Origin: an uncultured Porphyromonadaceae bacterium | GTDB lineage: Bacteria > Bacteroidota > Bacteroidia > Bacteroidales > Muribaculaceae | Assembly (NCBI GenBank): GCA_947175645.1 | Contig: CAMWNP010000007.1 | Location: forward strand, 40,042-104,041 | Reading direction: 5' to 3' | DNA length: 64,000 bases | Shown: positions 20,245 to 46,881 of the stretch, piece by piece | How the letters are laid out: each line of letters opens with the position of its first letter | How positions within the stretch are numbered: position 1 is the stretch's first letter | Program-made: the position numbers and the translations under genes | Notes under the pieces: model-generated | What the model saw: the letters and a program-made list of their open reading frames with translations, nothing else | Databases searched by the model: none | Told to the model about the DNA's origin: nothing

Positions 20245-20247
20245 CAC

Positions 20248-21071: not shown

Positions 21072-21080
21072 GTTGAAAAT

Positions 21081-23221: not shown

Positions 23222-23227
23222 ATTGAA

Positions 23228-25385: not shown

Positions 25386-25425
25386 ACTCGAAAAAGTATT
25401 CCTGAATGGCAGTTTATTTATATAA

Positions 25426-26580: not shown

Positions 26581-26632
26581 AAAATATACTTAGAATAATT
26601 TATACCTTTATCAAGTTATCCGGACTTATATC

Positions 26633-26643
26633 GGGGGGGGGGG
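26633..26643. repeat. Poly-G tract of 11 bases
   Basis: Eleven consecutive G on the plus strand (C on the transcribed message), between the stop of the flippase gene (26650) and the wecB start (26580). Long homopolymers are prone to slippage. Here length changes would alter only the untranslated gap. Confidence 0.8.
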
Positions 26644-26649
26644 ATATGC

Positions 26650-28005
26650 CTAACTCTGGTGCTTAAGGAGATACTTCAGATATGCGTACTGATAAATGCC
26701 ATGAATGAAATATGCTATCATTATGGCGAGGGCCAGTCCGGTAGCGCCATACCCTTTTTTTATAAATAGGAACGCGAAGGATAAAACCAGGATGGACCAG
26801 ATGAGATTGCATACAAATCCTGCCCACATTTTTCCCTGACTTGCAATGGCTTGTCCGACTACCGTGGCAAACGACGCGAACACGGCCGAACCACATAGGA
26901 TAATCAGCGGGGCGGGCCTGTCGAATCCCTTACCCCACAGACTCAGTATAGGGTTGGCAAGCACACTGAGAATCAAACCTATACAGAATGTTATTCCAAC
27001 ATTAATCAAAATGTTGTATTTCAATATTTTATTATAAGCGTCACCGTCTTTTGATCCATATTTTACGCTTGTCAGAATCGGCAGCAGGATTGTAGAGAGG
27101 GTCATCGGTATGAACAGTACCATGGTTTTAATCTGGTCGGCAACATTATATATCGCCACTTCCCCGAAACTCGTTTCTCTGACAAGATAAGTCCGGCTTA
27201 ACCATAAAGCCAGTAACACAAGCACATTACACAGCGCTGCCGGAATACCGAAAACCCATATCACCTCAATCTCATCCTTATTGACTTCTTTGAGTTTGAA
27301 GGAGACACGATTTCCGAAATGCTTCTTAATATAGTAGTGATTGATTATAGTGAGAACAATGTAGCCTCCTGCGCTTCCGATTATTGCTCCGTTTATCCCC
27401 CACTTCATTGCCATCAGAGCGATAGATACAGTTTCAACTATACTTGATATCAGAGTGTTCTGGGCAATATGACGAAAATCCTCAAAGCCGGTCAGCGTTC
27501 CCGCCTGGGCTGCATTCAATGTACAGAAAAACAGCAGTATGGCCCCATAATTCAGACTTGATGCCAGCGAGGGGTCATCCAACTGTGAGGTTGCTATCCA
27601 TGACGAGGTGAGGGCAATCAGCCCGATAGTCGCCAGACCGAATATCACGGAGAAGAGCGTCGAGACAACATAAATATTGTATGCTTTCTGCAGATTGGAT
27701 TCCCTGAACTGCGATATATACTTCGTTGTCAACGATCCAACACCTACCGATGCCAGAGTAAAAAACAGGAAAATGGTGGTGCGGATTGTGCTGTATGCTC
27801 CATATTCCGTTCTTCCCAATATGTGTGCCACAATGATAGAACTCAGCAGAAGCACAGCCTTGCTCATCACATTGCCCGACAGACTCCAGAAACTCCCCGA
27901 AGCAATTCTTGAGCCTATGGGAGAATTGGCCACACGTTGAACAAGATGATTGCGCATGCATCGGTCAACTACCTTTTTCTTCAAGTTCTTATCCATTGGC
28001 GACAT
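26650..28005 (-). CDS. Polysaccharide flippase (Wzx, MATE/PST type)
   Basis: A 451-residue membrane protein with about twelve to fourteen hydrophobic helices, starting with GSFWSLSGNVMSKAVLLL, typical of the polysaccharide biosynthesis flippase family that moves undecaprenyl-linked repeat units across the inner membrane. The start is set at the ATG at 28005. A TTG at 28008 and an ATG at 27996 are alternatives. It lies immediately after the beta-helix protein gene and pairs functionally with the Wzy-like gene at 24186. Confidence 0.86.
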   Translation of the reverse strand: MSPMDKNLKKKVVDRCMRNHLVQRVANSPIGSRIASGSFWSLSGNVMSKAVLLLSSIIVAHILGRTEYGAYSTIRTTIFLFFTLASVGVGSLTTKYISQFRESNLQKAYNIYVVSTLFSVIFGLATIGLIALTSSWIATSQLDDPSLASSLNYGAILLFFCTLNAAQAGTLTGFEDFRHIAQNTLISSIVETVSIALMAMKWGINGAIIGSAGGYIVLTIINHYYIKKHFGNRVSFKLKEVNKDEIEVIWVFGIPAALCNVLVLLALWLSRTYLVRETSFGEVAIYNVADQIKTMVLFIPMTLSTILLPILTSVKYGSKDGDAYNKILKYNILINVGITFCIGLILSVLANPILSLWGKGFDRPAPLIILCGSAVFASFATVVGQAIASQGKMWAGFVCNLIWSILVLSFAFLFIKKGYGATGLALAIMIAYFIHGIYQYAYLKYLLKHQS

Positions 28006-28008
28006 CAA

Positions 28009-29073
28009 TCATCTGATTGTGTACTTTTCATAATTTTTTGAGGTCAGCCTCCGAGGATCGGTGATGACGAGGTTTCTGAAACATCCGGCACCTTTCGCCG
28101 ATCCCTCTTTTTCTTCAAGTACAATATTCTGCCTGACAGCGTTGTTTTGAGTCAGCCCCATTTTGAAATTTGTCACGATTGAGTCAAATGGACCGACCGA
28201 CTGGAAACATACATGTTTGTCTCCGCGGTTAGAATACCAATAGGAGAAGCAATCATTATAAATGCTGACACCGGACTCTATTCTGAATCCTGTTGCGTAT
28301 TGGTCACTGTAACAGAAATCATACCAGTTGTTGCCATATTTGTCAACGAAAGCAGTGCCGGTGGCATAGAGCGATTCATCCGCGCTTCCGTACAGCGGAT
28401 GAACATTTCGCAGGATATTCGAGCCGGAACTGATATGTACGCCGGTCTGCATGCGGTAGATACGGACATTCGTTACCGTATTGTCATGACCCTCCAAGAC
28501 TATTCCAACGGAATTTTCTTCCATATTGCCGGTAATGTTAACATCCAGTATATCACAATCTGATGAACCTCCGTTGAGCCCTTTCTTCACATGAATTCCT
28601 ACCTGCGCACTTTTAATGGCGACATCCTTTATCAGGGTCTCTCTTCCGCAATCAACAGAAATTCCTTTAGCCAGATTCCTGCAATCAATTATCCCGCCTG
28701 ACAGATAATAGTTACTGCCGGGTATAAGAATTGTATTATACGGATCCTTTCTACCCAGACAAATCAGGGCACTTTCATTTTTCCATCCATCTACGGGCCG
28801 GATGACAGCATAGTTCGACAGTTCCAGACAAACACTTTTATAGGGATTGGCAGGGGTCAGTATAGGAGATGAAATATTATAAACTCCATCGGGGAAATAT
28901 ATCACCCGGTTGGGGTTTTCATCAATCGCACGCTGGATTTCCTTTATCACATCACCATTTTGATCTGTGATATAGTCCATTACATTCACCGGAGAAATAT
29001 TTCTGCCACTTACCTCATCGAGCAGGAAAGTGAAAAAGAAACACAATATAATTATTATACCCCGGCGGTTCAT
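28009..29073 (-). CDS. Secreted parallel beta-helix protein (pectate-lyase-like fold)
   Basis: A 354-residue protein with an N-terminal hydrophobic signal (GIIIILCFFFTFLL), so exported. It then shows the start of a pectate_lyase_3-like right-handed beta-helix: a segment of the form AIDENPNRVIYFPDGVY, followed by repeated short strands (GIIDCRN, GISVDCG, VGIHVKK, VGIVLEGHDN, TGVHISSGSN). No catalytic residues could be assigned with confidence. Inside a capsule operon, it may cleave or modify the polymer in the periplasm. The start is the second ATG (29073), since the first (29082) is only three codons earlier. Confidence 0.65.
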   Translation of the reverse strand: MNRRGIIIILCFFFTFLLDEVSGRNISPVNVMDYITDQNGDVIKEIQRAIDENPNRVIYFPDGVYNISSPILTPANPYKSVCLELSNYAVIRPVDGWKNESALICLGRKDPYNTILIPGSNYYLSGGIIDCRNLAKGISVDCGRETLIKDVAIKSAQVGIHVKKGLNGGSSDCDILDVNITGNMEENSVGIVLEGHDNTVTNVRIYRMQTGVHISSGSNILRNVHPLYGSADESLYATGTAFVDKYGNNWYDFCYSDQYATGFRIESGVSIYNDCFSYWYSNRGDKHVCFQSVGPFDSIVTNFKMGLTQNNAVRQNIVLEEKEGSAKGAGCFRNLVITDPRRLTSKNYEKYTIR

Positions 29074-29097
29074 GCTATGCAATCATCAATCATTTCA

Positions 29098-30213
29098 TCA
29101 ACCATGCTGACGTGCAACGAATTCTTCAAGCACAAGTTTCCATCTCGACATCCACTTTTCCTTGGAAAAGCACTCGCGGACAATGTCGTAGCCATTCTGA
29201 GCCAGTCTCTTTCGTAACTCCGGTTTTTCAACCAGTTCACACAGGCTCCGGTAGATGCTGTCTTCATCGGGGTTGACTATCAAGCCGTTGTAATCATTGA
29301 ACACAATATCGGTCATACCCCCTACATTGGTGCAGAGAACGGCACACTGAGCCGCCATTGCCTCAAGCAGCGAAAGTGATGTTCCTTCCGAACCCAGCGT
29401 GGGAACCACGGCAATATCCTTGTTTTTATGCACCTCCATTGAGTCATCACTTGCGTAAGTGATGAATTTCACCGCCGGATTGCCATTGAACTGTTCTGTC
29501 AACCATTCCTTATCGGGTCCCTCGCCGGCAAAAGTAATCTCCAGATTGTCAAACTCCTCGAGGAGTCGTTTTACAGCCTTGGCAAAAATCCTTGTGCCTC
29601 GGTAATAGAAGAACCTGCGGGCGAAGATAATCCTGATTTTTCCGTCATCAGGTTTTTGTATCACGGGTGCTATTTCCGTGAAGTTGGGAATATTCAGCAA
29701 TCTCACGCGTGGTTTCTCGACCATCGCCCTGTACCAGTTGATGAAGTTGCTGTCCACACAAACAAGCAACGATGCTTTTTCAACTCTGTTTACAATCAGG
29801 CATCCCCGGTAGAATTTCTTCAGCATAAAAAATATGCGGTTCCGGTCAACGGGGATATCCCATGTTATTCCATGCTGAATTGCAATGAACGGGATTCCGT
29901 CGGTCGAGCATATATAATCATCACTGCCGAACAGGAGAATGTCGTTCTTACGGTCAAAGTTCCTCACACATTCATTGAACAGTGTGCGTCCTATTTTTGA
30001 CCCACGGGTGGCATTTGTCATCACTCCGGTAACATTAACCTTGCCGACACTCTTTTTGAAAGGAACTTTACTGCACTGGTAAATATTCACTTCATAGCCC
30101 ATCCCTACAAGGAGATCGGACAGATTGTGCAGATAGGTCTGGATTCCGCCCAACGACATTTTTTCACCATCGGGGGTCAGATAATTGACATAAAGAAAAT
30201 GTGCTTTTTTCAT
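29098..30213 (-). CDS. Family 4 glycosyltransferase
   Basis: A 371-residue GT-B glycosyltransferase. The N-terminal acceptor domain begins with a GGIQTYLHNL block. The C-terminal donor domain has RIIFARRFFYYRGTRIFAKA and the nucleotide-sugar-binding EX7E motif in EGTSLSLLEAMAAQCAVLCT. The retaining GT4 family covers many sugars, so the donor cannot be named. It is flanked by other transferases in the left operon. Confidence 0.85.
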   Translation of the reverse strand: MKKAHFLYVNYLTPDGEKMSLGGIQTYLHNLSDLLVGMGYEVNIYQCSKVPFKKSVGKVNVTGVMTNATRGSKIGRTLFNECVRNFDRKNDILLFGSDDYICSTDGIPFIAIQHGITWDIPVDRNRIFFMLKKFYRGCLIVNRVEKASLLVCVDSNFINWYRAMVEKPRVRLLNIPNFTEIAPVIQKPDDGKIRIIFARRFFYYRGTRIFAKAVKRLLEEFDNLEITFAGEGPDKEWLTEQFNGNPAVKFITYASDDSMEVHKNKDIAVVPTLGSEGTSLSLLEAMAAQCAVLCTNVGGMTDIVFNDYNGLIVNPDEDSIYRSLCELVEKPELRKRLAQNGYDIVRECFSKEKWMSRWKLVLEEFVARQHG

Positions 30214-30239
30214 TCTTCGCTGATTATGAGGATATCTGA

Positions 30240-31184
30240 TTATCTCTTTAAGTTCATCCTTTTTGCCAAGGCTACGATTTTGTTCCTTACGATATGTTTG
30301 ACAGTATTCAATGCTATTTCCGATGAGGAGAATCCGTTATCACGCAATATTTGGCGACCTTTGCCGTATGTGGTCTTGTTCTCGAACAACGATCTTGCCA
30401 TCTGCGGCCACAGAAAGTTTATCACATATTTTCGCGGTATGCCATGTTCCTTGAAGAATCGGTGTGCTTCGGCGAAAACGGCAATTCTTTCTATCTTTTT
30501 ACTTTCGCTGAGTGTTCTGGAAACAGACCCTCCGCGGGTTGTGATGGTGCAGAGTGCATTTGGGGTGGATGTGATCTTACCGGCGTGATAGCCTACCAAG
30601 TAGGAGTATTTCGTATCATTGTGAATCGATGTTTCCGAGAACCTGATTTTATTATCCTCAATCAGTTTCCGGCGTACGATTTTGCACCACGGCTCGCCAA
30701 ACGTGAAACGCAGACGCATTTCGGCCTCCGGGGTTTGTTTCTGATGACCATGTATGTAGCCGTTTAAAGTGTCCGCTCTGTCGCTCGTTGTGTAATAATC
30801 GGAGTCGACACTATTGGCGGCACAATATACTATATCTACATCATCCGCAACCGTTTTCAGATCATCTACAATGGCATTGAACTTCGGCGTAACGTAATCG
30901 TCGGCATCAATGAAAGTGATCCATTCACCCTTTGCATGGGACAGACCGAGATTTCGTGCCGCTCCCCCACCTTTTGCGCTTTCGGTGTGATACAGTTCAA
31001 TTCCCTTTGACTGAATACGTGACACTTCTTTTTCCGGAAGCATACCCTCATCGCTGCAATCATCAACGACAATAAACTGGAGATCACTCCTTGAAGGTAT
31101 AGAATCAAGACATCGGTTAAGAAGATCGGGAATATTCCTGTGCGGAATAATGACTGTCAGTAATATCTCTTTTAAAGAATTCAT
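30240..31184 (-). CDS. Family 2 glycosyltransferase
   Basis: A 314-residue GT-A enzyme: VIIPHRNIPDLLNRCLDSI, FIVVDDCSDEG and the metal-binding TFIDADDYVTP, with the block GAARNLGLSHAKGEW between them. The C-terminal third is helical and lysine-rich. It starts 13 bases after the acetyltransferase stop, so the pair is co-translated. The acceptor and donor are unknown. Confidence 0.85.
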   Translation of the reverse strand: MNSLKEILLTVIIPHRNIPDLLNRCLDSIPSRSDLQFIVVDDCSDEGMLPEKEVSRIQSKGIELYHTESAKGGGAARNLGLSHAKGEWITFIDADDYVTPKFNAIVDDLKTVADDVDIVYCAANSVDSDYYTTSDRADTLNGYIHGHQKQTPEAEMRLRFTFGEPWCKIVRRKLIEDNKIRFSETSIHNDTKYSYLVGYHAGKITSTPNALCTITTRGGSVSRTLSESKKIERIAVFAEAHRFFKEHGIPRKYVINFLWPQMARSLFENKTTYGKGRQILRDNGFSSSEIALNTVKHIVRNKIVALAKRMNLKR

Positions 31185-31197
31185 TAAATCTGTGGCA

Positions 31198-31860
31198 CTA
31201 TATCCTTGATTTACACCAGTTTACCCCCCCCCTCAATATTTTGGCGGGATTTCCGGCCACTATACTTCCCTGAGGAATGGTTTTTCCACTGACCACCGAC
31301 ATTGTCCCTACTATACTGTTGTCGCCTACCGTGCTTCCTTTTAACACGTTAGCACCGTTACCGATCCACACATGACGACCTATTTCTACACTTCTGCCGG
31401 GATTGATGCGTTCGCCTGCCTCATCTAATACAGAGTGGGAGTCAGAAGTTCGTAGGACCACATCTGCCGAAAACAGGCAGTCTTCACCTATATTTATAGC
31501 CGTGTTCTTATCGCTACATGTAAAAAAACATCCCCGGAAATCACCATTATCTCCGATTATAACCGAGTTGTTTTCATCTTCTATTCTTATCCAACCCCAT
31601 TCGTTCCACACTGTGCCGTTTCCTATTTTCAGTGTATGACCGTCACCCGTAATAGAAATTCTGACATTATTCAGTTTAACATCTCTCCCTATTTCAATGA
31701 GGTTTCCGGTCCCTTTCACATCAATAGTGCAATTAATCAATCGTCCCGAGCAACTGAATCTGTTGCCGTTGCGATTAAGTAAATAATTCCATTTGAATCG
31801 CAGGAAAGATTTATATAGAATCAGCCCGAAGCCTTTCTTGATCAGTTCTACTTCCCTCAT
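31198..31860 (-). CDS. Left-handed beta-helix acyltransferase
   Basis: A 220-residue member of the hexapeptide-repeat (LbH) acyltransferases. The many [LIV]-G-x4 turns are visible from IEIGRDVKL onward, and the active-site region VEIGRHVWIGNGANVLKG is followed by the C-terminal GSIVAGNPAKIL. It probably acetylates a sugar of the left polysaccharide. The ATG at 31860 is chosen over the TTG at 31902. A run of nine G (minus strand) lies in the last codons, so slippage would change only the short tail. Confidence 0.8.
   Translation of the reverse strand: MREVELIKKGFGLILYKSFLRFKWNYLLNRNGNRFSCSGRLINCTIDVKGTGNLIEIGRDVKLNNVRISITGDGHTLKIGNGTVWNEWGWIRIEDENNSVIIGDNGDFRGCFFTCSDKNTAINIGEDCLFSADVVLRTSDSHSVLDEAGERINPGRSVEIGRHVWIGNGANVLKGSTVGDNSIVGTMSVVSGKTIPQGSIVAGNPAKILRGGVNWCKSRI
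31224..31232. repeat. Nine-base C tract inside the acyltransferase 3' end
   Basis: Nine consecutive C on the plus strand, read as G in the gene. Losing one base creates an immediate stop after LRGG. Gaining one alters the last residues. Confidence 0.75.
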
Positions 31861-31898
31861 CACAAAAAAATTTACTACTGAACCTTGACGGAAAGATG

Positions 31899-33185
31899 TC
31901 AATCCTGATGGAAGATATCGCGGGTGTAGATTTTCTCCGAAACATCCACCAGGTCTTCGCTGGTGCGGTTTGCGAGGATGGCATTGGAGAGGCGCTTGAA
32001 TTCATCAAGGTCATTGACTATGCGCGACCCGAAGAAGGTGGTGCCGTCTTCGAGGGTCGGTTCATAGATGATTACGGTGGCTCCTTTGGCTTTTATTCGT
32101 TTCATAACTCCTTGAATGGAGGAGTGACGGAAGTTGTCGGAGTTGGACTTCATTGTCAGACGGTATACGCCGATTGTCACCGGTGCTTCTGGGGTCCAGC
32201 AGGCCAGTTTGAGCACCTGGTCGGCTATAAAATCCTTACGTGTGCGGTTGCTCTCCACTATCGCACTCATCATGTTTTGCGGCACGTCGGCATAGTTGGC
32301 AAGCAACTGTTTGGAATCCTTGGGCAGACAGTAGCCGCCGTAGCCGAATGATGGATTGTTGTAGTGTGTGCCGATGCGCGGATCAAGCCCTATACCCTCT
32401 ATTATGGCACGTGAATCGAGTCCTTTCACCTCGGCGTAGGTGTCGAGTTCGTTGAAGTAACTGACGCGAAGTGCCAGATAGGTATTGGCGAAAAGTTTTA
32501 CCGCTTCGGCTTCCTTGATTCCCATGAACAACGTGGGGATGTCGGATTTCAGTGCTCCTTGCTTGAGAAGATCGGCGAAGATGTGTGCCTGACGGTCAAG
32601 ATATTCAATATCCGTGACGGAGAGAATGGCCTCGTTTTCCTGCTCAAAGTCTGGTTTCCTGACAATTTTGGGTACCCCGGCTATGATGCGGCTGGGATAA
32701 AGGTTGTCATACAAAGCCTTGCTCTCACGCAGAAATTCGGGGAAGAAAAGCAGGTTGAACCGCTTCACCCCTTTGAGTGCATATTTGAGATAGAGGCTGC
32801 GGCAGTATCCTACGGGGATGGTTGATTTTATGACCATCACAGCCTCAGGATTTACGCTGAGAACCAGGTCAATGACATCCTCAATGCTGTGGGTGTCGAA
32901 GTAATTCTTGACCGGGTCATAGTTGGTCGGGGCGGCAATGACTACAAAGTCGGCGTCGCGGTAGGCCGCGGCTCCGTCAAGGGTTGCCGTCAGGTCAAGG
33001 GGCTTCTCGGCGAGATACTTTTCGATGTAATCATCCTGGATGGGTGAACGGTGATTGTTGATAAGATCCACCTTTTCGGGGATCACATCCACGGCTGTCA
33101 CCCGGTTGTGCTGTGCGAGCAGGGTAGCGATGCTCAGCCCTACATAGCCTGTGCCGGCTACTGCAATGTTGTACTTCTCTTTCAT
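31899..33185 (-). CDS. ugd: UDP-glucose 6-dehydrogenase, left copy
   Basis: A 428-residue NAD-dependent dehydrogenase making UDP-glucuronate. The N-terminal Rossmann motif is [18 protein letters not shown], and the catalytic cysteine is in [12 protein letters not shown]. The C-terminal UDP-binding domain ends with KVIYEP-like and YTRDIF blocks. The sequence follows the E. coli Ugd type throughout, not WecC. It is the first biosynthetic gene after upxY in the left operon. A second copy (46882) ends the right operon. The proteins are very alike, but the DNA differs at many silent sites. Confidence 0.93.
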
Positions 33186-33233: not shown

Positions 33234-33776
33234 TCACTCCAGAGTCTGCAGCAGGTCAGGGTGGATGAAGGGGAGCATGACCATGCATATCCCTTCGATT
33301 TTCACAACCACATGGCGGTTTTTGCGCACCCGCTGCACATAGCCTTCGTAGCCTTCGAACTCTCCGCCGATGACTCTGACACGCTGGTCCACTCGGAAGT
33401 CATCCTTGCGGAATATCTCGCAGCGCGTGCGGTCTGTGGCGGTCAGCAGACGGAGCAGTTCTATACTGCTTTCGGGTATGGGGCGGATCCGGTTTTCCTT
33501 CGGGTAGCGGTAGATCCAGAACGGAACGTTCTGTTCCGGTGACTTGCGTCCGCGCGTTTCCATATCAAGGATGTTGCTACGGGTGGTCTTGAGGAAGAGT
33601 ACGTGGGGGATGACCGCGCGGTCACGTGGCTTACCGCCTTCTCTCTGAACGGATTCCAGGGGGAAGAACAGGTCTTCACAGAAAGGCGCGAGCAACTGTG
33701 CTGCACGGAAGTCCTGCTTTGTCCGGATGGCGAACCATTCGGATGAAGGTTGATTGTTGTCGGCGGGTTCGTTCAT
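33234..33776 (-). CDS. UpxY-family transcription antiterminator, left operon
   Basis: A 180-residue NusG-like protein with an NGN domain beginning WFAIRTKQDFRAAQLL and a C-terminal KOW region around VRVIGGEFEGYEGYV. In Bacteroides, UpxY proteins load at the 5' leader of their own capsule operon and prevent premature termination. The ATG at 33776 (MNEPADNN) is chosen. Upstream in-frame codons lie in the leader. It is first in the left operon, with no UpxZ gene next to it. Its 3' part is nearly identical to the right-hand copy (34252). Confidence 0.9.
   Translation of the reverse strand: MNEPADNNQPSSEWFAIRTKQDFRAAQLLAPFCEDLFFPLESVQREGGKPRDRAVIPHVLFLKTTRSNILDMETRGRKSPEQNVPFWIYRYPKENRIRPIPESSIELLRLLTATDRTRCEIFRKDDFRVDQRVRVIGGEFEGYEGYVQRVRKNRHVVVKIEGICMVMLPFIHPDLLQTLE
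33246..33424. repeat. Outer inverted repeat, left arm (upxY 3' part)
   Basis: A 179-base segment inside the left upxY that matches 34601-34779 in inverted orientation with 6 mismatches. The 5' parts of the two genes are much less alike, so the 3' parts appear to have been homogenised by gene conversion or duplicated recently. Confidence 0.85.
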
Positions 33777-33857
33777 CTTCGCATGTATACAATTTCGTTC
33801 TGCGGAGCATGGATATGTGACCATCCTCCACATTTTTCCTCAACCGTCCGTCTTTCC

Positions 33858-33917
33858 TCAGGTCCGGATCTGCCGGATTAGCCTATACAGGTGCTTTCCA
33901 AGTGGTTGGGCTTCCAT
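33858..33917 (-). CDS. Candidate leader peptide, left operon (19 codons)
   Basis: A short frame starting inside the 53-bp inverted repeat and ending before upxY: ATG at 33917, TGA at 33860-33858. An AGGAG lies two bases before the ATG, closer than usual. The right operon has a frame with the same first 12 residues, fixed by the repeat, and a similar continuation past it (RLIRQI versus RLVREI). It would be translated at the start of the capsule leader RNA. It is real only if tests show translation. Confidence 0.3.
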   Translation of the reverse strand: MEAQPLGKHLYRLIRQIRT

Positions 33918-33932
33918 AACTCCTGTTAAGAG
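33880..33932. repeat. Inner inverted repeat, left arm (53 bp, perfect)
   Basis: An exact reverse complement of 34107-34159. The match decays outside, with about 12 of the next 17 bases alike. The pair encloses 174 bases carrying a promoter, as expected for an invertible DNA element. Confidence 0.95.
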
Positions 33933-34106
33933 ATATGGATTGCTTTGCAAAGATACGAAATATATTTTAAATATGTGGTTCAACGGGGTATTATTTTTTT
34001 GTACTGCCATGCAGTGCGGTGTCAATGTGGGTGTGATGTTTAAAAACAGCGGGTTATGCATCAATATATCATACTGTAAATCAGGGTAATAAAGGGTTTT
34101 CAATGA
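33933..34106. other. Putative invertible promoter segment between two capsule operons
   Basis: 174 AT-rich bases between perfect 53-bp inverted repeats, with no gene and a single consensus -7 element (minus strand, 33948-33955). In this orientation the promoter drives the left operon and the right operon has none. Inversion would place the same element at 34084-34091 on the plus strand, pointing right. Capsule promoters of Bacteroides fragilis invert through Mpi-type recombinases by the same logic, but each locus there has its own switch. Confidence 0.85.
33948..33955 (-). promoter_or_regulatory. -7 element of the capsule switch promoter
   Basis: Minus-strand TATCTTTG, a consensus -7 element, with transcription predicted to start near 33941, about 9 bases inside the repeat. 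The best upstream TTG (33983-33981) is 25 bases away, longer than the usual 19-21, so the promoter may be weak or need an activator. A palindrome CTTTGCAAAG (33943-33952) overlaps it. Confidence 0.6.
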
Positions 34107-34159
34107 CTCTTAACAGGAGTTATGGAAGCCCAACCACTTGGAAAGCACCTGTATAGGCT
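34107..34159. repeat. Inner inverted repeat, right arm (53 bp, perfect)
   Basis: The exact reverse complement of 33880-33932. Both arms read outward identically, so either operon's leader RNA would begin with the same sequence. Confidence 0.95.
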
Positions 34160-34193
34160 CGTCCGGGAGATTCCGCGAAACATCTTTGCGTGA
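34122..34193 (+). CDS. Candidate leader peptide, right operon (23 codons)
   Basis: The mirror of the left leader frame: ATG at 34122 inside the right repeat arm, TGA at 34191-34193, 58 bases before upxY. The first 12 residues are identical to the left one because they lie in the repeat. The next residues are LVREIPRNIFA. Translation is unproven. Confidence 0.3.
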   Translation: MEAQPLGKHLYRLVREIPRNIFA

Positions 34194-34251
34194 CGGTTGT
34201 GAGGGTTACGTGACGCTGTTGCGTAATAGTGGTACTTATACCAAAAACAGC

Positions 34252-34791
34252 ATGACGGAAGAAGCAGAAAATAAAGCAGATACACACTGGTATGCCATCC
34301 GCACCCGCAGAGAATTCCGCGCCGTGGAGCAGTTCAATCCGCTCTGCGAGGAAGTGTTTCTTCCCACGGAAACCATCATCACCGAGGGGCGCAGGCGGCG
34401 TGAGCGTGCAGTCATTCCCCACGTGTTGTTCGTGAAATCATCAATGAGCAGAATTCTGGAACTGGAGCAGAAAAGCAAGGAACATCCTGAGCAAACCGTT
34501 CCTTTCTGGGTCTACCGTTATCCAAATGACAGGCGCATCCAGCAAATCCCGCAGTCAAGCATCGACCTGTTGCGCCTCCTGACAGCCCCGGACTGCTCCC
34601 GCTGCGAGATATTCCGCAAGGATGACTTCCGTGTGGACCAGCGAGTCAGAGTCATCGGCGGACGATTCGAAGGCTACGAAGGCTATGTGCAGCGAGTGCG
34701 CAAAAACCGCCATGTGGTTGTGAAAATCGAAGGGATATGCATGGTCATGCTCCCCTTCATCCACCCTGACCTGCTGCAGCAGATTGAATAG
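34252..34791 (+). CDS. UpxY-family transcription antiterminator, right operon
   Basis: A 179-residue NusG-like antiterminator. The NGN domain begins WYAIRTRREFRAVEQF and the KOW region VRVIGGRFEGYEGYV, as in the left copy. The last 60 residues are almost identical between the two, while the N-terminal halves differ, which fits N-terminal specificity for the operon's own leader. The ATG at 34252 (MTEEAENK) is chosen over an upstream in-frame ATG in the repeat-flanking leader. No UpxZ gene follows. The first biosynthetic gene starts 32 bases later. Confidence 0.9.
   Translation: MTEEAENKADTHWYAIRTRREFRAVEQFNPLCEEVFLPTETIITEGRRRRERAVIPHVLFVKSSMSRILELEQKSKEHPEQTVPFWVYRYPNDRRIQQIPQSSIDLLRLLTAPDCSRCEIFRKDDFRVDQRVRVIGGRFEGYEGYVQRVRKNRHVVVKIEGICMVMLPFIHPDLLQQIE
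34601..34779. repeat. Outer inverted repeat, right arm (upxY 3' part)
   Basis: The partner of 33246-33424, 173 of 179 bases matching in inverted orientation. Both arms lie in coding sequence in the same frame, so recombination between them would keep both genes open. Confidence 0.85.
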
Positions 34792-34823: not shown

Positions 34824-35666
34824 ATGTCATCCCGACTATCAGGACTTTTTGATAGAATACGAGCCAACGGTGCAATGATAGACTACCGTTTTGGCATAGG
34901 GCGTCTTGAGCGTCTATTTTTCTCGAAATGGCTCAATCCGTTTGCCACCGCATGGTTCAACTTCCGCAGTTTCTCCTTTTATCAGGCCATATGTTTCCCT
35001 GTGTATGTCTATGGCAGACCGCGCATGTTCGCTCTCTCCGGACGGATGAGAGTGGAAGGGAAGGTTTGCCCCGGCATGATAAAGTTCAACGCTGACGCAT
35101 ACGGTGCGCCATCAAACATGAATTCACAGTCCGAAATCATAAATCTGGGTGAAATAATCTTCAAAGGCGGCGGATTCATAGGCACGGGCAACAAGATAAA
35201 ACTGGCGCAGCGTGCGGTGCTGGTGCTGGGCAATAAGTTCAGAATCACGGACCGATGCAACATTTCATGCGAAAAGCGGATTGAAATTGGCGACGAAAGT
35301 TGGGTTATCCATAACAGTCAGGTCATGGACACGAATTTCCATTTTGTGGCAGATCTGGAACGCATGAGTGTGGCTCCGCGCTCGAAGCCTGTAAAAATAG
35401 GGCGGCACTGCTGGGTGAGCAACACCGCCATCGTAATGGGTGGCACCGTCATGCCTGACTATTCCATCCTCGGAAGCCTGAGCATGATAAACAAGGATTA
35501 TTCCGAATGTGAGGAGGGCACATTTTTCGCCGGTGTTCCGGCTCAGCCAAAGCGCAACCGCCTGTGCAGAATTGACAATCCGGCGATAGAAAACGCCGTC
35601 TGGACTCACTTCGCCAACCACACCGGAGATTTCCCTCTTGACGGTTTCTCCATACGCGACCTCTAA
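34824..35666 (+). CDS. Left-handed beta-helix acyltransferase
   Basis: A 280-residue protein with a basic N-terminal region and a hexapeptide-repeat domain from about residue 100, including GTGNKIKLAQ, IEIGDESWVIHNSQV and the active-site-like VKIGRHCWVSNTAIVMGG, with a C-terminal extension after FAGVPAQP. It probably acetylates a sugar in the right polysaccharide. It starts 32 bases after upxY and is followed by the flippase gene after 8 bases. Confidence 0.75.
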   Translation: MSSRLSGLFDRIRANGAMIDYRFGIGRLERLFFSKWLNPFATAWFNFRSFSFYQAICFPVYVYGRPRMFALSGRMRVEGKVCPGMIKFNADAYGAPSNMNSQSEIINLGEIIFKGGGFIGTGNKIKLAQRAVLVLGNKFRITDRCNISCEKRIEIGDESWVIHNSQVMDTNFHFVADLERMSVAPRSKPVKIGRHCWVSNTAIVMGGTVMPDYSILGSLSMINKDYSECEEGTFFAGVPAQPKRNRLCRIDNPAIENAVWTHFANHTGDFPLDGFSIRDL

Positions 35667-35674
35667 CTCAATTT

Positions 35675-37198
35675 ATGACCGATAGTTCCGACAATAAACG
35701 GATTGCCAAGAACACGCTGTTTCTCTACGTGAGGATGCTGGTTGTTATGTTCGTGACATTCTTCACCTCTCGCGTTATACTTGAAGCATTAGGTGTTGAC
35801 GGCTACGGTGTGTACTCGCTTGTGGGCGGCCTGGCATTCTCTTTCGGATTCTTCTCTTCCTCACTTTCCAACGCCACACAACGCTATCTGAGTTTTGCAC
35901 ATGGCAAGAACGGTATCGAGGAGGTCAGGACAATATTTAATGCTACGGCAGTCATTTATCTCCTTCTCGGAGGCCTCACGCTGACGGTCGGCTGCCTGAT
36001 AGGACCCTTCCTCATTTCCAGGATAACCATACCGGAGTCAATGGTCACTCCTGCCTACTGGGTCTACTACTGCTGCATCGTTTCGCTGACCGTCACTCTG
36101 ACGGCTACGATGTTCGACTCCGTGCTGATAGCGCGTGAAAACATGAAGGTCTATGCCTATCTGAGCATCTTCGACGTGTTTGGAAAACTCGCCATAGCCT
36201 ACATGATTTTCCTGACCGCTCCCGGCATGAAACTGATTATCTACGCCATCGACCTGATGGTGTTGACCTTCATTGTGAAAGGCGTCATGATATTTTTCTG
36301 CATCACACGCTATCCGGAATGTAGGATAAAACTCCACTGGGACAAGGCCAACATAAAGGAACTTCTGGGATTTATAGGATGGAACGGAGTGGGCACCGCC
36401 GTCTACGCCGTGAACGACCAGGGTGTGAACCTGTTGCTGAACATCTTCTTCGGGCCGGTGGTCAATGCCGCGCGCGGTGTGGCTTATCAGGTGAACACCG
36501 CCATCACCCACTTCTCACAGAACTTCCTGCTTGCCATATCGCCGCAGATGATGAAATCCTACGCCCGGCAGGAGATGACGAAGTTCATGCAACTGTTTGT
36601 CTACAGTGGCAAATTCTCATTCGCCATGCTATGGGTGCTGTTCCTGCCCGTGATTATGAGGCGGCACTACATTCTTCATCTTTGGCTTAAGGATGTTCCG
36701 GATTATACCGGTCAGTTTCTCGTGTGGATAATCGTCTACAGTCTGGTCAACGCCTACAACTACCCCTCATGGTTTGCCATTCAGGCCGTGGGGCGTCTCA
36801 GAAAATTCACCCTTATCACCAACACCATATTCCTGCTTATTGTGCCTGTTTCATGGGTAATACTCAAGGTTGATCCTGACCCTGTCATAGTTTTTCAGGT
36901 GATGGCGGCCGACCGTCTGCTGATAAACATAGTGGCGCTTTTCATTCTCCGGGGATATTACAGTTTCTCCATACCCACGTATATCCGACAGTCCGTGCTA
37001 CCCAACATGCTTCTGGTGCTGCTCACCGTTTTCCTGGCCTTGTTCATCAACAGCCTCATCCCCCAGTCATTCATAGGATTCATCCTCAACTCCCTTCTGC
37101 TTTGCATCATCTGTTGCGGCGCAGTATGGCTGATAGTGCTTTCAAAACAGGAACGTGGCAAAATCTCCTCGATGATACGGGCAAAACTTCACATCTGA
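35675..37198 (+). CDS. Polysaccharide flippase (Wzx), right operon
   Basis: A 507-residue membrane protein with about fourteen hydrophobic helices, of the polysaccharide transport family. It starts with NTLFLYVRMLVVMFVTFFTS and the family block EALGVDGYGVYSLVGG. It is not closely similar to the left-operon flippase, fitting a different repeat unit. It would flip undecaprenyl-linked units to the periplasm for the polymerase at 38335. Confidence 0.87.
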   Translation: MTDSSDNKRIAKNTLFLYVRMLVVMFVTFFTSRVILEALGVDGYGVYSLVGGLAFSFGFFSSSLSNATQRYLSFAHGKNGIEEVRTIFNATAVIYLLLGGLTLTVGCLIGPFLISRITIPESMVTPAYWVYYCCIVSLTVTLTATMFDSVLIARENMKVYAYLSIFDVFGKLAIAYMIFLTAPGMKLIIYAIDLMVLTFIVKGVMIFFCITRYPECRIKLHWDKANIKELLGFIGWNGVGTAVYAVNDQGVNLLLNIFFGPVVNAARGVAYQVNTAITHFSQNFLLAISPQMMKSYARQEMTKFMQLFVYSGKFSFAMLWVLFLPVIMRRHYILHLWLKDVPDYTGQFLVWIIVYSLVNAYNYPSWFAIQAVGRLRKFTLITNTIFLLIVPVSWVILKVDPDPVIVFQVMAADRLLINIVALFILRGYYSFSIPTYIRQSVLPNMLLVLLTVFLALFINSLIPQSFIGFILNSLLLCIICCGAVWLIVLSKQERGKISSMIRAKLHI

Positions 37199-37219
37199 CA
37201 TGATTTAACTCCGGGCGGC

Positions 37220-38338
37220 ATGAAAATTCTCATTCAGGTTCATTCATTGACGGGAGGCGGAGCGGAACGGGTTGCCGCATCCTGGGCCAACGGACTATCG
37301 GCGCTGGGACATCAGATGACGGTAATGACCAATCTGAAACTTCCGCGCACCTATGCCACATCGCCTGAAGTCAGACTGGTTCAGCGTGACATCTGCTCAG
37401 TCAACAAAGGGTCAGTATTTGAGAAACTGAAAGCCGGTGTACTCAACCCGGTCAAAGCATTTCTGCAACTGCGCCGATATCTGCGTCACGAACGCCCCGA
37501 CGTGGTTATTAACGTTCTTTATCTGAACCAGTACGCGCTCCTTCTCGCCCGACTGCTGTCCGGCGTAAAAGTTCCGGTGATCATGACTGACCATAACTCT
37601 TATGAAAGGCCCCCCGGCCACGGATTCAAGTGGCGGCAATGGAAAAACAAGTTTATCGACAATCGCCTTTTTGACAGAGTGACAGTCCTCACCGGGCGCG
37701 ACAAAAAGATACTGTCGGAAAAAGGATTCACGAATGTTGACGTTCTTTATAACCCCCTCTTCCTGACACCGGTAGAATCCATTCCTCCTAAGGAGAACAT
37801 CATCCTTGCCTGCGGCAGACTTGACTCCTGGCAGGTGAAAGGGTTTGACGTACTGATGAAAGCATGGAGCATTGTAGGTCCCGAACACCCCGATTGGAAA
37901 CTGAGGGTGGTGGGTGCCGGGAAACCTGACACGATTGAATTTCTGAAAGGACTCGCCGGGGAAGGCACAGACAACCTGGAATTTGCACCATACACGCCAG
38001 ATATTGTAAACGAATATCGCCGGGCATCAATCTTCGCACTCTCCTCACGCTATGAGGGCTGGGGACTGGTGATGGTCGAAGCCATGAGTCAGGGGTGCGC
38101 GGTTGTGGCATGTGACTACCTCGGCAGACAACGCGAGGCCATAACCGATGGAATCAACGGACTGATCTGCGAGCCTGACAATGTTAACGCCCTCGCCGAG
38201 ACACTGGACAGAATGATATCTGACACCACCCTAAGGGAGCGAATCCAAAGTTGCTCACCCGAATCTGTCAGACAGTACACTCAGGACAAAACCGCCACCG
38301 GGTTAGAAAAAATCATAAACACCGTTTCCGGTAAATGA
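37220..38338 (+). CDS. Family 4 glycosyltransferase
   Basis: A 372-residue GT-B retaining glycosyltransferase. The N-terminal VHSLTGGGAERVAASW block is typical, and the donor-binding domain has LACGRLDSWQVKGFDVLM and an EX7E motif in SRYEGWGLVMVEAMSQGCAV. The close match to GT4 enzymes acting on GalNAc or Gal is only suggestive. Its stop overlaps the start of the next gene by four bases (ATGA). Confidence 0.86.
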   Translation: MKILIQVHSLTGGGAERVAASWANGLSALGHQMTVMTNLKLPRTYATSPEVRLVQRDICSVNKGSVFEKLKAGVLNPVKAFLQLRRYLRHERPDVVINVLYLNQYALLLARLLSGVKVPVIMTDHNSYERPPGHGFKWRQWKNKFIDNRLFDRVTVLTGRDKKILSEKGFTNVDVLYNPLFLTPVESIPPKENIILACGRLDSWQVKGFDVLMKAWSIVGPEHPDWKLRVVGAGKPDTIEFLKGLAGEGTDNLEFAPYTPDIVNEYRRASIFALSSRYEGWGLVMVEAMSQGCAVVACDYLGRQREAITDGINGLICEPDNVNALAETLDRMISDTTLRERIQSCSPESVRQYTQDKTATGLEKIINTVSGK

Positions 38339-39453
38339 TTGATAAAGTAAGCACACCTCATATTGACTACAGCCGGAAAATGAACCGTTGGTACATTTTC
38401 TCTTCCTACCGTGAACTGCTGGTTATGTTCGCTTACGTCGTCGCATGCATCTCTTATTATATAAGTTGGTATCAGCCTTCTCTGGAATCCACATTACGTT
38501 ATGTGATGGGGTTTGCCTTGCTTGCATCAATCAAATGGACCGGTTGGGACTATTCAAAAGTTGCCCTTATCCTTTTCCTGCTTGTTTCATTGGTTGCCCG
38601 GCGACTTCTGGTAGTATGGATTATTTTCGCCCTTGTCTACCAGATCGATTACTTGAGAATTCCAATTCGCAGGCTTGCAAAGACAGGTGCGGTAATCCTC
38701 CTGATACTGATATTCATTCAACTTGAAATGGTTATGCTGGATATCGTTCAGAACAACGAGTGGTCAGTTCTGAAAGTGAAGCGGATAATCCATGACTGCG
38801 GCACCGGGAATCCGAATCGTGCCGGTCAGATCATACTTTTCTTCCTCCTCAACCTCTATATTCTGTTTAAGGATAACCGCAGGATCACATATATCATAGC
38901 AAGTCTGGCGATTTCCTCTCTGATATATTACTACACCGGCTCACGAACAGGATTAATGGGGATAATCATAGTGTTGTTCACCGCCTTCGCCTGCTGGAAC
39001 GGAATGATCCGCAACTGGATGAGATGGCCCCTGGCAATAATACCTTTGTTCTTCTTTGCCTCAACCTTCTATATGGCGCTAAACATGGAAGACAGTGGTG
39101 ACGTCAACGAGGCTACCAGCGGACGACTCTACTACATAGTGACTCTGACTAAAGAATACACCCCTCACGAATGGCTTGTCGGCGCACCGCGTGAAATAGA
39201 TGAACCGCTTGACTCCACATATCTTGACATTATAACTAAAGGTGGCATACTTCTGGCAACGTTCCTATCCCTTACGTTCGCAGCCTCCATCATCAGATTT
39301 TTCAAGGTCACAATTCCATATCTCCCTTTTATTCTGGCGCTTATGGCAACGGGATTGACTGAAACCTACTTCACATCCCCTAATTCAGTTTCCATAATCC
39401 TTTGGGTTCTTATACTGCAGTCTATCTCCAAGTATAAGCCTGTTCTGAAATGA
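38335..39453 (+). CDS. Wzy-like polysaccharide polymerase
   Basis: A 372-residue membrane protein with about ten hydrophobic segments and a hydrophilic loop around SRTGLMG and the later DSTYLDIITKGGILL block, which resembles the conserved loop of O-antigen polymerases. It is the only polymerase candidate in the right operon and pairs with the flippase at 35675. Sequence similarity in the family is weak, so the call rests on topology and position. Confidence 0.7.
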   Translation: MIDKVSTPHIDYSRKMNRWYIFSSYRELLVMFAYVVACISYYISWYQPSLESTLRYVMGFALLASIKWTGWDYSKVALILFLLVSLVARRLLVVWIIFALVYQIDYLRIPIRRLAKTGAVILLILIFIQLEMVMLDIVQNNEWSVLKVKRIIHDCGTGNPNRAGQIILFFLLNLYILFKDNRRITYIIASLAISSLIYYYTGSRTGLMGIIIVLFTAFACWNGMIRNWMRWPLAIIPLFFFASTFYMALNMEDSGDVNEATSGRLYYIVTLTKEYTPHEWLVGAPREIDEPLDSTYLDIITKGGILLATFLSLTFAASIIRFFKVTIPYLPFILALMATGLTETYFTSPNSVSIILWVLILQSISKYKPVLK

Positions 39454-39477
39454 CTATTTCTCCAAAATCTAAAAAAC

Positions 39478-40167
39478 ATGAGCATAAAAGACAGATTTCC
39501 CCGCTTACTTAAATCTTACCGTAAACTGCGCGATCAGATACTTTATCTCCGCAGATCAAAATTCCTTCCGCAGATCAACAGGATGATCGGTCCGGATGTG
39601 TCGATAATATGCTCCAACTGCTTCGCCGGCAGGATACTCCAGGATTTATGCAGACAATACAACACCCCTACTGTCGGGTTAGTATTCTGGGCTCCTGACT
39701 ATATTGAATTTCTATCAAATCTCGAACATTATCTCAAGGCTGAAATCATTTTCACCGATAAATCGAAATATCCGGAAGGTGATGAGGCCAGAAACTCATG
39801 GCATCACTGGTATCCCATAGGACTGCTTGACGGAAAGGTGGAAATACATTTCCTGCACTATTACTCGGAGAAAGAAGCCGCTGAGAAATGGCACCGCAGG
39901 GCCGCACGCGTCAATCTTGACAACCTGTTCATCATTGGAATGGACCAGAACCTTGCCACTGAAAAAGAAATAAAAGCATTTGATCGACTTCCGTTCAAAA
40001 ACAAAATCTATTTCTCACGCTACACCACCAACTGCGACTCAAACGTGTACATGCCCGAATTCGCAAATGAAAAAGATGGTATAGGCGACCCTTATAAAAA
40101 CGGGCATCTGTTCTACAAACATCTGGTCCGGCACTTCAACCCGTATAACATTGGAGCAATCAACTGA
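39478..40167 (+). CDS. DUF1919 family protein
   Basis: A 229-residue soluble protein with the DUF1919 core: ICSNCFAGRILQDLC, then VGLVFWAPDYIEFLSN, and a second half with SWHHWYPIG and NKIYFSRY. Members occur in polysaccharide loci and are thought to act in sugar transfer or modification, but the reaction is not known. Its stop ends one base before the next start codon, so the two are translated in sequence. Confidence 0.7.
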   Translation: MSIKDRFPRLLKSYRKLRDQILYLRRSKFLPQINRMIGPDVSIICSNCFAGRILQDLCRQYNTPTVGLVFWAPDYIEFLSNLEHYLKAEIIFTDKSKYPEGDEARNSWHHWYPIGLLDGKVEIHFLHYYSEKEAAEKWHRRAARVNLDNLFIIGMDQNLATEKEIKAFDRLPFKNKIYFSRYTTNCDSNVYMPEFANEKDGIGDPYKNGHLFYKHLVRHFNPYNIGAIN

Positions 40168-40168
40168 C

Positions 40169-41260
40169 ATGAGAACACAAACCCGCGGTAAACGTGCTCT
40201 GATATTTATCCAGAACGGGCTGGGGGGTGCCGAACGCATTCAGATTGAAATATCAAAGATGCTGATTGCCGACGGCTGGCAGATAAAGTTCTGCATGATA
40301 AGTTTCAACTCTAAGGAAAACAAAATCAAGCAGTTCTACCCTGAAAACGTGATGAGTTCAGAAATAATTGCCACCTCGCAATTCGGACTCCTTAAAGATA
40401 TCTTCAAACAGATAAAGGAATATCAACCAACTGTTGTTTTCGCCTCCGCAATGCATCTGAATCAGCGCATTCTGCTTGTTTCCATCCTTTTCCCGAAGAT
40501 AAAATTCATAATGCGGAACGAGAATTATCTCTACACCCTCCCCAAATGGAAGTGTCGCACATTAGGACTTACCTACCGTCTTGCCGATAAAATCATAGTA
40601 CAGACTGAGGAGATGGAAAACGAAGTCGTTAATTTAGGAATAAAGAACGACAAAGTCATAACGCTGCATAATCCGGTGAACGAGAAGGAGATACATGCCA
40701 AAGCCGCAGCTCCGTCACCCTTCCCTGAAGATGGGAAAATCAGATTTGTAGCCGTTGGTCGTTTCGCTCCACAGAAAGGGTTTGACATTCTTGTCGATGC
40801 ATTCAGAATCGTAGCCTCGATTGTTCCCGATGCGGAACTCTATATTGTCGGTGACACCTTTTACGGCAACGGAGCAGTCCTTAAAACAGTCCGGGATAAA
40901 GCCGGAGAGTATAACCTCACTGACCGCATATTCCTCCCCGGATTCAAGAGCAACCCCTACCCCTACATGCGTCATGCCGACGTATTTGTTCTGTCATCAC
41001 GCTATGAAGGTCTTCCAAACACTCTGATAGAGGCTCTCTTCCTCGGCACTCCCGCCGCTACAACAACCTGCATACCAATCATTTCCAGAATCATCACCGA
41101 TGGTAAAAACGGGTACACCGCAACATCAGGCAACGCGGAAGAACTTGCAAAAGCCATGATTGAAGCGGCTAAACTGAAAACCATAACCAATAATTACAAA
41201 CCTGCCTCAAACGAGGAATTCATAGAACAGTTCAACCGGCTGATCTCCCAAAAACATTAG
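40169..41260 (+). CDS. Family 4 glycosyltransferase
   Basis: A 363-residue GT-B glycosyltransferase: FIQNGLGGAERIQIEI at the start, VAVGRFAPQKGFDILVDAF in the donor domain, and EX7E in SRYEGLPNTLIEALFLGTP. The ATG at 40169 is chosen since it directly follows the preceding stop. A longer in-frame codon at 40151 overlaps that gene. It probably adds one residue to the right repeat unit. Confidence 0.85.
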   Translation: MRTQTRGKRALIFIQNGLGGAERIQIEISKMLIADGWQIKFCMISFNSKENKIKQFYPENVMSSEIIATSQFGLLKDIFKQIKEYQPTVVFASAMHLNQRILLVSILFPKIKFIMRNENYLYTLPKWKCRTLGLTYRLADKIIVQTEEMENEVVNLGIKNDKVITLHNPVNEKEIHAKAAAPSPFPEDGKIRFVAVGRFAPQKGFDILVDAFRIVASIVPDAELYIVGDTFYGNGAVLKTVRDKAGEYNLTDRIFLPGFKSNPYPYMRHADVFVLSSRYEGLPNTLIEALFLGTPAATTTCIPIISRIITDGKNGYTATSGNAEELAKAMIEAAKLKTITNNYKPASNEEFIEQFNRLISQKH

Positions 41261-41263
41261 AAC

Positions 41264-42265
41264 ATGCGTAAAAGAGTTGTTCAAATCAACACTCAACTAC
41301 ATAAGGTGACCGGCATCCAACATGTGATGCTCGACATTCATGAAGCACTGAAAGATGATTTTGAAACCCGTATTGCCGGTACGTTACCTTACGAAAAGGT
41401 AAATCCCGACCTCGGGATAAATCGAAAAGAATATTTCAGACTCATTAATCCCCTCTCTCTCAGGAACTCAGTGGTAATAATCCATGAACGGCGGCTGCTT
41501 CCACTGATGAGGATTCTTGAAATGATTCCGGGATTGGGAATAAAATGTGTGTATGTCCATCATAGTGAGATGCACGTCAACCGTACCCTTTCATTTTTCC
41601 CGAAAAATATAGTTGCAATTTCTGACGCAGGCATAAAAAACCTGACTGACTATTTTAAGGTTTCGCCCGATAAAATTACCAAAATTCATAACTGTGTCCG
41701 TGAACTCGAGCCATACGTGCCCCCTGTGAAGCCCGGGAGCGGGGAGATCACCATTCTCTACCCTGCACGAATCAACTCAGGGAAACAGCAGATTGAAATC
41801 ATACGGCATCTCAGAGGTAAACTTGACAAACGGGTGAGAATTCTGTTTGCAGGTACCGGTCCGCAACACTCTGAACTCTCCGAACTATGCAAAAACGACA
41901 GTCAGTTTGTTGCACTCGGATTCCGCAACGACATAGAAAAACTGATGCGCAAGACGGACTATGTGATGCTGTTCTCACAATTCGAGGGATTACCCATCTC
42001 ACTTATCGAGGCTGGTAAAAACGGCATACCGGCCATCTGCAACCATGTGGGTGGGATATGCGAGATTGTGGAGGATGGTGTCAACGGCTTTGTCGCAAAC
42101 GACTGGGACTCGATGCTCGTCCTGCTCAACTCCCTCCCCTCGGTTACTCCTGAACAGTGGAGAAAGATGGGAGATGAAGGGCGCAGGCTCTATGAAGAAC
42201 GGTTCACCTTTGAACGCTTTAAACAGCAATATATAAATCTCGTAGAAAAAATTTCCAATGCCTGA
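41264..42265 (+). CDS. Family 4 glycosyltransferase
   Basis: A 333-residue GT4-type enzyme. The donor domain reads ITILYPARINSGKQQIEII and ends with the EX7E-like SQFEGLPISLIEAGKNG. The N-terminal domain is shorter than in the two other GT4 enzymes of this operon. It overlaps the iron-sulfur protein gene by 8 bases. The sugar is unknown. Confidence 0.82.
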   Translation: MRKRVVQINTQLHKVTGIQHVMLDIHEALKDDFETRIAGTLPYEKVNPDLGINRKEYFRLINPLSLRNSVVIIHERRLLPLMRILEMIPGLGIKCVYVHHSEMHVNRTLSFFPKNIVAISDAGIKNLTDYFKVSPDKITKIHNCVRELEPYVPPVKPGSGEITILYPARINSGKQQIEIIRHLRGKLDKRVRILFAGTGPQHSELSELCKNDSQFVALGFRNDIEKLMRKTDYVMLFSQFEGLPISLIEAGKNGIPAICNHVGGICEIVEDGVNGFVANDWDSMLVLLNSLPSVTPEQWRKMGDEGRRLYEERFTFERFKQQYINLVEKISNA

Positions 42266-45260: not shown

Positions 45261-45266
45261 ACAATT

Positions 45267-46334: not shown

Positions 46335-46861
46335 ACCCTCTGAAGATTGTCAGAACTCTATGTAAGCGTCTGCGCGCCGTCTCTCAGTCTCCGGCTGCCT
46401 ACGCCCGCTCAATTGGGGTGAAGATCGGCAAAAATTGCCTAATCGCCACCCGCAACTGGTCGACGGAGCCTTATCTGATTGAGATTGGCGATAACTGTCA
46501 GATTACCAAAAACGTATGGTTCCACACCCACGGAGGTGCACACGCCGCACGCCGGATCGACCCTACGTTTGACGTGTTCGGCAAGATAAAAGTGGAGGAC
46601 TATGCCTACATAGGTGCCAACTCGCAGATTATGCCCGGAGTGACAATAGGCGAAGGGGCTATGATAAGTGCCGGCTCAATAGTGACCAGGTCAGTTCCCC
46701 CGGGCGAAGTGTGGGGAGGAGTGCCTGCACGCTTCATCTGCACTGTGGAGGATTATTATCAGCGCAACAAAAAATTCAATCTCTCCACCAAAGGTCTGAC
46801 CCCGGAGCAGAAACGACAGGTGCTTCTGAGTACTCCTGACGAACTTTTCATCAAAAAATAA
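46331..46861 (+). CDS. Left-handed beta-helix acyltransferase
   Basis: A 176-residue hexapeptide-repeat protein. Repeats run from [20 protein letters not shown] through [17 protein letters not shown] to [21 protein letters not shown]. It is like small serine- or sugar-O-acetyltransferases and probably acetylates a sugar of the right polysaccharide. Its start overlaps the epimerase stop (ATGA). The terminal 20 residues are charged. Confidence 0.78.
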
Positions 46862-46881
46862 AAAGTAAAAAAACAGACTAT

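Follow-up and report, generated by a model that had tools for sequence, protein, structure and literature searches.

A probable invertible promoter between two divergent capsule operons in an uncultured Muribaculaceae bacterium

The capsule switches of Bacteroides (B. fragilis and B. intestinalis) are described, in the available text of two reports, as invertible promoters of about 180 bp that are flanked by short inverted repeats, carry a TAnnTTTG-type promoter and precede an operon whose first gene is upxY (PMC8375218, PMC3090145). In the available accounts, the Mpi-type switches occur once per operon, with the repeats GTTCGTTTAA or ARACGTTCGTN (PMC8375218), and the operons inhibit each other through UpxZ (PMC7593976, PMC7315117). 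For the large capsule of B. fragilis, inversion of a capsule-linked promoter by a tyrosine recombinase, Tsr19, is described (PMC3090145), and in gut Bacteroidota an enrichment of UpxY genes close to invertons is reported (PMC11892184).

The locus analysed here lies in a 64,000-nucleotide stretch of DNA, hereafter the window. It resembles the Mpi-type switches in its short-repeat-flanked promoter of TAnnTTTG type and in having upxY as first gene, but it has one switch between two operons, another core and no Mpi-like enzyme found. By comparison with Tsr19, likened here by description, the locus also pairs a capsule-linked promoter of invertible type with a candidate tyrosine recombinase in the same genome, whereas that enzyme is encoded on another contig and the switch would serve two operons. 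As in the UpxY/UpxZ system, each operon opens with a gene for a UpxY-like antiterminator, but there is no upxZ-sized gap, the NF033644 scores fall below the cut-off and promoter orientation would replace UpxZ cross-inhibition. At sapA of Campylobacter fetus, one promoter inverts between two oppositely oriented surface-protein genes, which are single S-layer genes, on a multi-kb invertible segment. The window likewise places one promoter between two opposed surface-structure transcription units, but its units are entire capsule operons and its segment measures 174 bp. No description of a capsule promoter common to two operons was found in the open-licence literature, judged mostly by titles and abstract openings. 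Our preferred reading, to which we give a probability of roughly 75%, is that the 174-bp segment is an invertible promoter common to both operons and works as an A/B selector, with crossover in the core, a tyrosine recombinase encoded on contig C1 acting in trans, and a leader hairpin in the arms for UpxY.

Anatomy of the segment and of the two operons

The switch and the operons on its two sides comprise the following features (window coordinates).

33880–33932, no strand: left 53-bp arm; putative recombination core at the inner end, most of the left-operon leader hairpin at the outer end
34107–34159, no strand: right 53-bp arm, a perfect inverted copy of the left arm
33933–34106, no strand: invertible-type segment of 174 bp, bearing the single promoter element
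33948–33955, minus: -7 element TATCTTTG, leftward in the sequenced orientation
33234–33776, minus: left upxY-like gene (NF033644, 75.8 bits, full-length match)
34252–34791, plus: right upxY-like gene (NF033644, 87.8 bits, full-length match)
20304–33185, minus: left polysaccharide operon after upxY, 12 genes (limits inferred from strand and spacing)
34824–48198, plus: right polysaccharide operon after upxY, 13 genes (limits inferred from strand and spacing)

The perfect 53-bp repeats around 174 bp that the initial annotation had noted are the longest perfect inverted run found, and as in an inverton they surround a promoter. The arm sequence has two copies in the whole draft genome (3,167,802 bases in 139 contigs), both at the window switch. 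A scan of both strands of 33701–34300, which covered promoters of the TAnnTTTG type, returned a sole copy, TATCTTTG at 33955–33948 on the minus strand, in agreement with the single left-pointing consensus -7 element proposed earlier. Taken by itself this element carries little weight, because about 25% of dinucleotide shuffles of the window spacer hold a TAnnTTTG on some strand; no -33 element was recognised in the window promoter, which we count against the selector. When the segment is inverted in silico, the first 76 nt from the -7 element are identical in the two orientations, so both leader RNAs would start alike, as the initial annotation had anticipated.

Each side leads to an upxY gene heading a polysaccharide operon, as had also been claimed, and the genes that follow (12 on the left, 13 on the right) are all on the strand of their upxY. 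We name the two first genes UpxY-like because both score below the curated NF033644 cut-off of 100. The distance from arm to ATG is 93 bp on the right and 104 bp on the left, where the start codon at 33776 is our choice and the open frame permits 33833. The genome contains these two UpxY-type genes and one weaker NF033644 match on contig C34, which is presumably NusG. The left operon encodes a UDP-glucose dehydrogenase, a hexapeptide transferase, GT2 and GT4-type glycosyltransferases, a lyase-like protein (below cut-off), a Wzx-type flippase, a WecB epimerase, a 399-aa protein with no Pfam match, GT2, UDP-galactopyranose mutase, an acyltransferase and a further GT2. The right operon encodes a hexapeptide-type protein (below cut-off), a MatE flippase, glycosyltransferases, a Wzy_C-like protein, DUF1919, an FrhB-type protein, a pyruvyl transferase, WecG, an epimerase, a hexapeptide transferase and a UDP-sugar dehydrogenase. 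Both operons thus hold a flippase-type gene together with genes for glycosyltransferases and sugar-nucleotide enzymes. The Wzy_C match on the right is a weak sign of a polymerase, at 25 bits where the cut-off is 31.7; domain search identified none on the left. A tRNA-Gln gene lies at 20174–20245, just past the far end of the left operon.

The gap between upxY and the next gene, 48 bp on the left and 32 bp on the right, has no room for the upxZ that follows upxY in UpxY/UpxZ loci. A PF06603 (UpxZ) search gave no match in this genome or in 119 genomes of the order, and the control genomes were equally silent, so the absence of UpxZ is judged solely from gene spacing. Since no upxZ fits after either upxY, exclusivity would come from promoter orientation.

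Related switches in the family

UpxY of the window type gave 46 matches in 42 of 398 genomes of the family, copy numbers being lower bounds as scoring did not extend to every initial candidate in some genomes. Among these 46 matches, the window's two form the only divergent neighbouring upxY pair; three other genomes have two matches, in each case on separate contigs. Across a sample of the order, this query matched in 3 of 247 genomes and a broader UpxY model in 147 of 247, although the window's own genes fall under the threshold of that model; no contig had two matches among the matches listed.

We examined 40 of the 44 non-window upxY loci, that is, all except those of G003 (of which a partial piece was seen), G012, G181 and G221. 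An inverted repeat with the core ATCTCT-N5-AGAGAT lies upstream of upxY in 11 of the 40, with a spacer of 144–203 bp; the switches were picked partly by this motif, so the count is partly circular, and we hold this against the selector. The spacer promoter provides a test independent of the motif-based selection: all 12 spacers (the window and 11 relatives) hold at least one TAnnTTTG, against 3.3 expected. In the relatives the promoter points toward upxY at six loci (L054, L058, L060, L061, L062 and L069) and away from it at five (L063, L064, L065, L067 and L080); the L061 spacer has three copies, one of them facing away. The far side of the element carries genes other than upxY in all 11, and the switch precedes one operon only. 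Because the relatives' elements serve one upxY and occur in both orientations across assemblies, the ancestral-looking form would be an ON/OFF switch and the window its two-sided version. The earlier expectation that each locus normally has its own ON/OFF switch thus agrees with the relatives, and the proposed search of the family for the same arrangement yielded the one-operon element and no second divergent pair. The window assembly itself represents one orientation of one genome, which counts against the selector. At L059, the region about -469 to -197 upstream of upxY contains an 11-bp inverted repeat, TGCAAAGTTAC, which amounts to two opposed -7-like elements 250 bp apart with no core-type repeat; these are possibly fixed divergent promoters.

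The relatives bear directly on an alternative in which the element inverts but a separate, fixed promoter also drives the right operon; the segment would then turn the left operon ON or OFF and only modulate the right one. That upxY stands on one side only in every relative with the element favours such an arrangement, and our promoter scan was limited to one promoter type. On the other hand, 33701–34300 contains no TAnnTTTG directed toward the right operon, and the right side has a full arm, hairpin and upxY at a spacing similar to the left, as expected if the promoter is common to both. We therefore regard a fixed right promoter as unlikely; the anatomy and the relatives together back the initial proposal of one invertible-type promoter between two upxY-headed operons.

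A covarying leader hairpin and homogenised upxY halves

The segments discussed in this section are listed below; both hairpins were training members of the covariance model, R1, that scores them.

33856–33919, minus: leader hairpin of the left operon (R1, 64.5 bits)
34120–34183, plus: leader hairpin of the right operon (R1, 57.5 bits)
33246–33539, minus: homogenised 3' (KOW) part of the left upxY, 85% identical over 294 nt to the right copy
34486–34779, plus: homogenised 3' (KOW) part of the right upxY, counterpart of the left copy

Each 53-bp arm holds, in its outer part, most of a covarying hairpin. A segment matching this outer part lies about 85–300 nt upstream of upxY in 29 of the 40 relatives, there outside repeats (a looser pattern was needed for 7 of the 29). 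In the ungapped segments, 91% of cells in the outer four pairs can pair, with 21 double changes, compared with 69% and 4.4 when the 3' halves are shuffled among sequences, and the real values were reached by 0 of 2000 shuffles; the structure was read from the same sequences, and the statistics ignore kinship. On a MAFFT alignment, 87.1% of cells pair versus 79.0% in shuffles, double-change cells number 24 versus 8.4 (0 of 500), and slid versions of the hairpin bring pairing down to 26–55%. Doubly changed pairs were less distinctive (6 versus 3.9, reached by 35 of 500 shuffles), while the other four of five measures were reached by none of the 500. RNAalifold on this alignment gave 7 pairs with a weak covariation term of -0.36, and single-sequence energy folding of the two window leaders lent the hairpin no support (z +0.83 and +0.70).

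The covariance model recovers all 29 training relatives and, in the 64-kb window, the two leader copies and nothing else. It found none in 11 more distant upxY loci, apart from one weak match (E 0.2) in L120, and none in 20 classical UpxY loci. No Rfam family exceeded threshold for the hairpin, and three sub-threshold eukaryotic RNAs were taken as chance; neither the arm pattern nor the hairpin pattern matched viral contigs. Its link to one UpxY subclade makes the hairpin a candidate element for recruiting UpxY, on the model of LoaP. LoaP, a specialised NusG paralog, has a target leader that contains a small conserved hairpin, and the available part of that report calls it unclear whether NusG paralogs other than RfaH use similar recruitment mechanisms (PMC12691694). 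The window system, known from its sequence, also pairs a protein of NusG-paralog type with a small conserved leader hairpin, but the LoaP hairpin is of UNCG type and the window hairpin is another, and the protein families differ.

The two window UpxY proteins are 68% identical, and the identity is very uneven along their length. The break falls between what we take to be the NGN and KOW domains: the NGN halves have diverged and the KOW halves are nearly identical. In a comparison of 33 proteins (those remaining after removal for length or cut frame), third codon positions of codons 1–106 agree at 0.30 between the window pair (median of other pairs 0.31), whereas codons 119–179 agree at 0.90 (median 0.38). 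In the latter range, the best agreement of either window gene with another species is 0.56, and 2 of 465 other pairs reach at least 0.90. This pattern probably reflects gene conversion between the two KOW halves. In addition, a PDB sequence search gave weak matches of the UpxY KOW region to SPT5/NusG.

The recombinase and the selector model

A tyrosine recombinase adjoins the upxY switch in L014/L054, L069 and L080. The best match of the L014 enzyme among the seven tyrosine-recombinase matches of the window genome is the following gene, whose product has Phage_int_SAM_5 and Phage_integrase domains.

G000:C1:186170-187402: candidate tyrosine recombinase (L013/L094; A3 clade), from a clade profile search and a 56% match over 411 aa to the L014 enzyme

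The query alignment of the profile search included the C1 protein itself, and the L014 match is independent of that query. This is the one A3-clade member of the genome, and it lies on a contig other than the window's, just before a DUF3575 gene. Among 60 genomes of our choosing (42 with UpxY matches, 18 without), 44 have an A3-clade enzyme: by hand count, all 12 with an upxY switch versus 32 of the 48 others, and this frequency in genomes with no upxY switch counts against the selector. A core-type inverted repeat occurs in the flanks of 15 of 30 clade recombinase loci, some flanks being cut by contig ends, and two of the 15 are upxY switches already counted. No such repeat was found in the comparison sets: 27 overlapping pieces of the window, 7 further recombinase loci of this genome and 11 distant upxY loci (L083–L093). 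The flanks of the C1 gene contain no core-type repeat and the motif there is at chance (13 versus 9.96 expected), which also counts against the selector; at the window switch the enzyme would consequently act in trans. At L061, a different tyrosine recombinase (26–28% identity to the L013/L014 enzymes) adjoins the switch. L098 (2792–3297) has two core-type inverted repeats side by side, each with a TAnnTTTG, beside one tyrosine recombinase, and in L102 (1365–1444) a 35-bp inverted repeat with a 10-bp loop abuts a core-type element beside a recombinase gene.

The window core, ATCTCT-TAACA-GGAGTT, sits at the inner end of each arm and differs from ATCTCT-N5-AGAGAT by 2 mismatches in the left arm and 4 in the right (hand count), the least perfect of the set. 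We count this degeneracy against the selector; the left-arm site is recovered with 2 mismatches, and both arms align with the relatives. A genome-wide scan allowing up to 2 mismatches found 124 sites per strand, compared with 51 for the backward motif used as control, with no paired site by eye among the matches listed. The degenerate core, an enzyme on another contig with no element nearby and the KOW halves, which suggest that conversion happens at this locus, would all suit a frozen left-operon promoter, in which the arms no longer recombine, the right operon is silent and leader gene conversion keeps the arms identical. Against this, the right operon has 14 intact open frames as assembled, a sign that it has not been silent for long, and the 5-bp centre of the core is the same in both arms, as in the relatives; on balance a frozen promoter seems quite improbable.

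The initial annotation had named an Mpi-type recombinase, a serine invertase known for B. fragilis capsule promoters in the available text of PMC8375218. This attribution did not hold up and we consider it very doubtful: PF00239 (resolvase family) has one match in the genome, a 529-aa frame located at the end of a contig, no Mpi-like small serine invertase was found, an absence that is not absolute in a draft, and the arm, compared by eye, contains neither ARACGTTCGTN nor GTTCGTTTAA. The core instead resembles elements that adjoin tyrosine recombinases, and judged from sequence that clade is the better candidate. An assembly artefact, in which two separate capsule loci with a switch each were fused at a common repeat, might be imagined for a 139-contig draft with arms of just 53 bp, yet it is the least probable of all, given that two switches need four arm copies and the assembly has two, that homogenised KOW halves and leaders indicate two genes of one lineage, and that completeness is 99.94 and contamination 0.35.

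In favour of the selector we count the unique perfect arms, the lone TAnnTTTG, the identical 76-nt start, the relatives' elements in both orientations, the presence of just two UpxY-type genes in the genome, the lack of room for upxZ and the recombinase clade beside elements. Under the selector model, the promoter would transcribe the left operon in the sequenced orientation and the right operon after inversion. Because a single promoter reads left or, inverted, right, the cell would choose between A and B and would have no state in which the promoter is off, in contrast to the relatives' ON/OFF switches. The C1 enzyme, acting in trans, would most likely catalyse crossover within the central 5 bp of the core. 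The outer part of the arm would be dispensable for crossover and would form the 5' leader common to both operons, whose hairpin may recruit or license the UpxY antiterminator that each operon encodes in its first gene. More tentatively, and at somewhat less than even odds, orientation would take the place of UpxZ cross-inhibition in a two-state selector, each arm would combine an inner recombinase site with an outer UpxY-recruiting hairpin, and gene conversion would keep the hairpin and KOW half identical while the NGN halves and operons diverge.

We thus see the locus as a variant invertible capsule promoter that probably acts as an A/B selector and that carries a leader hairpin we had not expected; this covarying hairpin makes recruitment of NusG paralogs such as UpxY directly testable. 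Comparison with the one-operon switches of relatives shows how an ON/OFF switch may turn into a selector. If the reading is true, the exclusive choice between two capsules would be encoded by DNA orientation and not by protein cross-inhibition, giving the cell surface a simple, natural form of A/B memory, with relevance to how gut bacteria escape phages and are recognised by the immune system.
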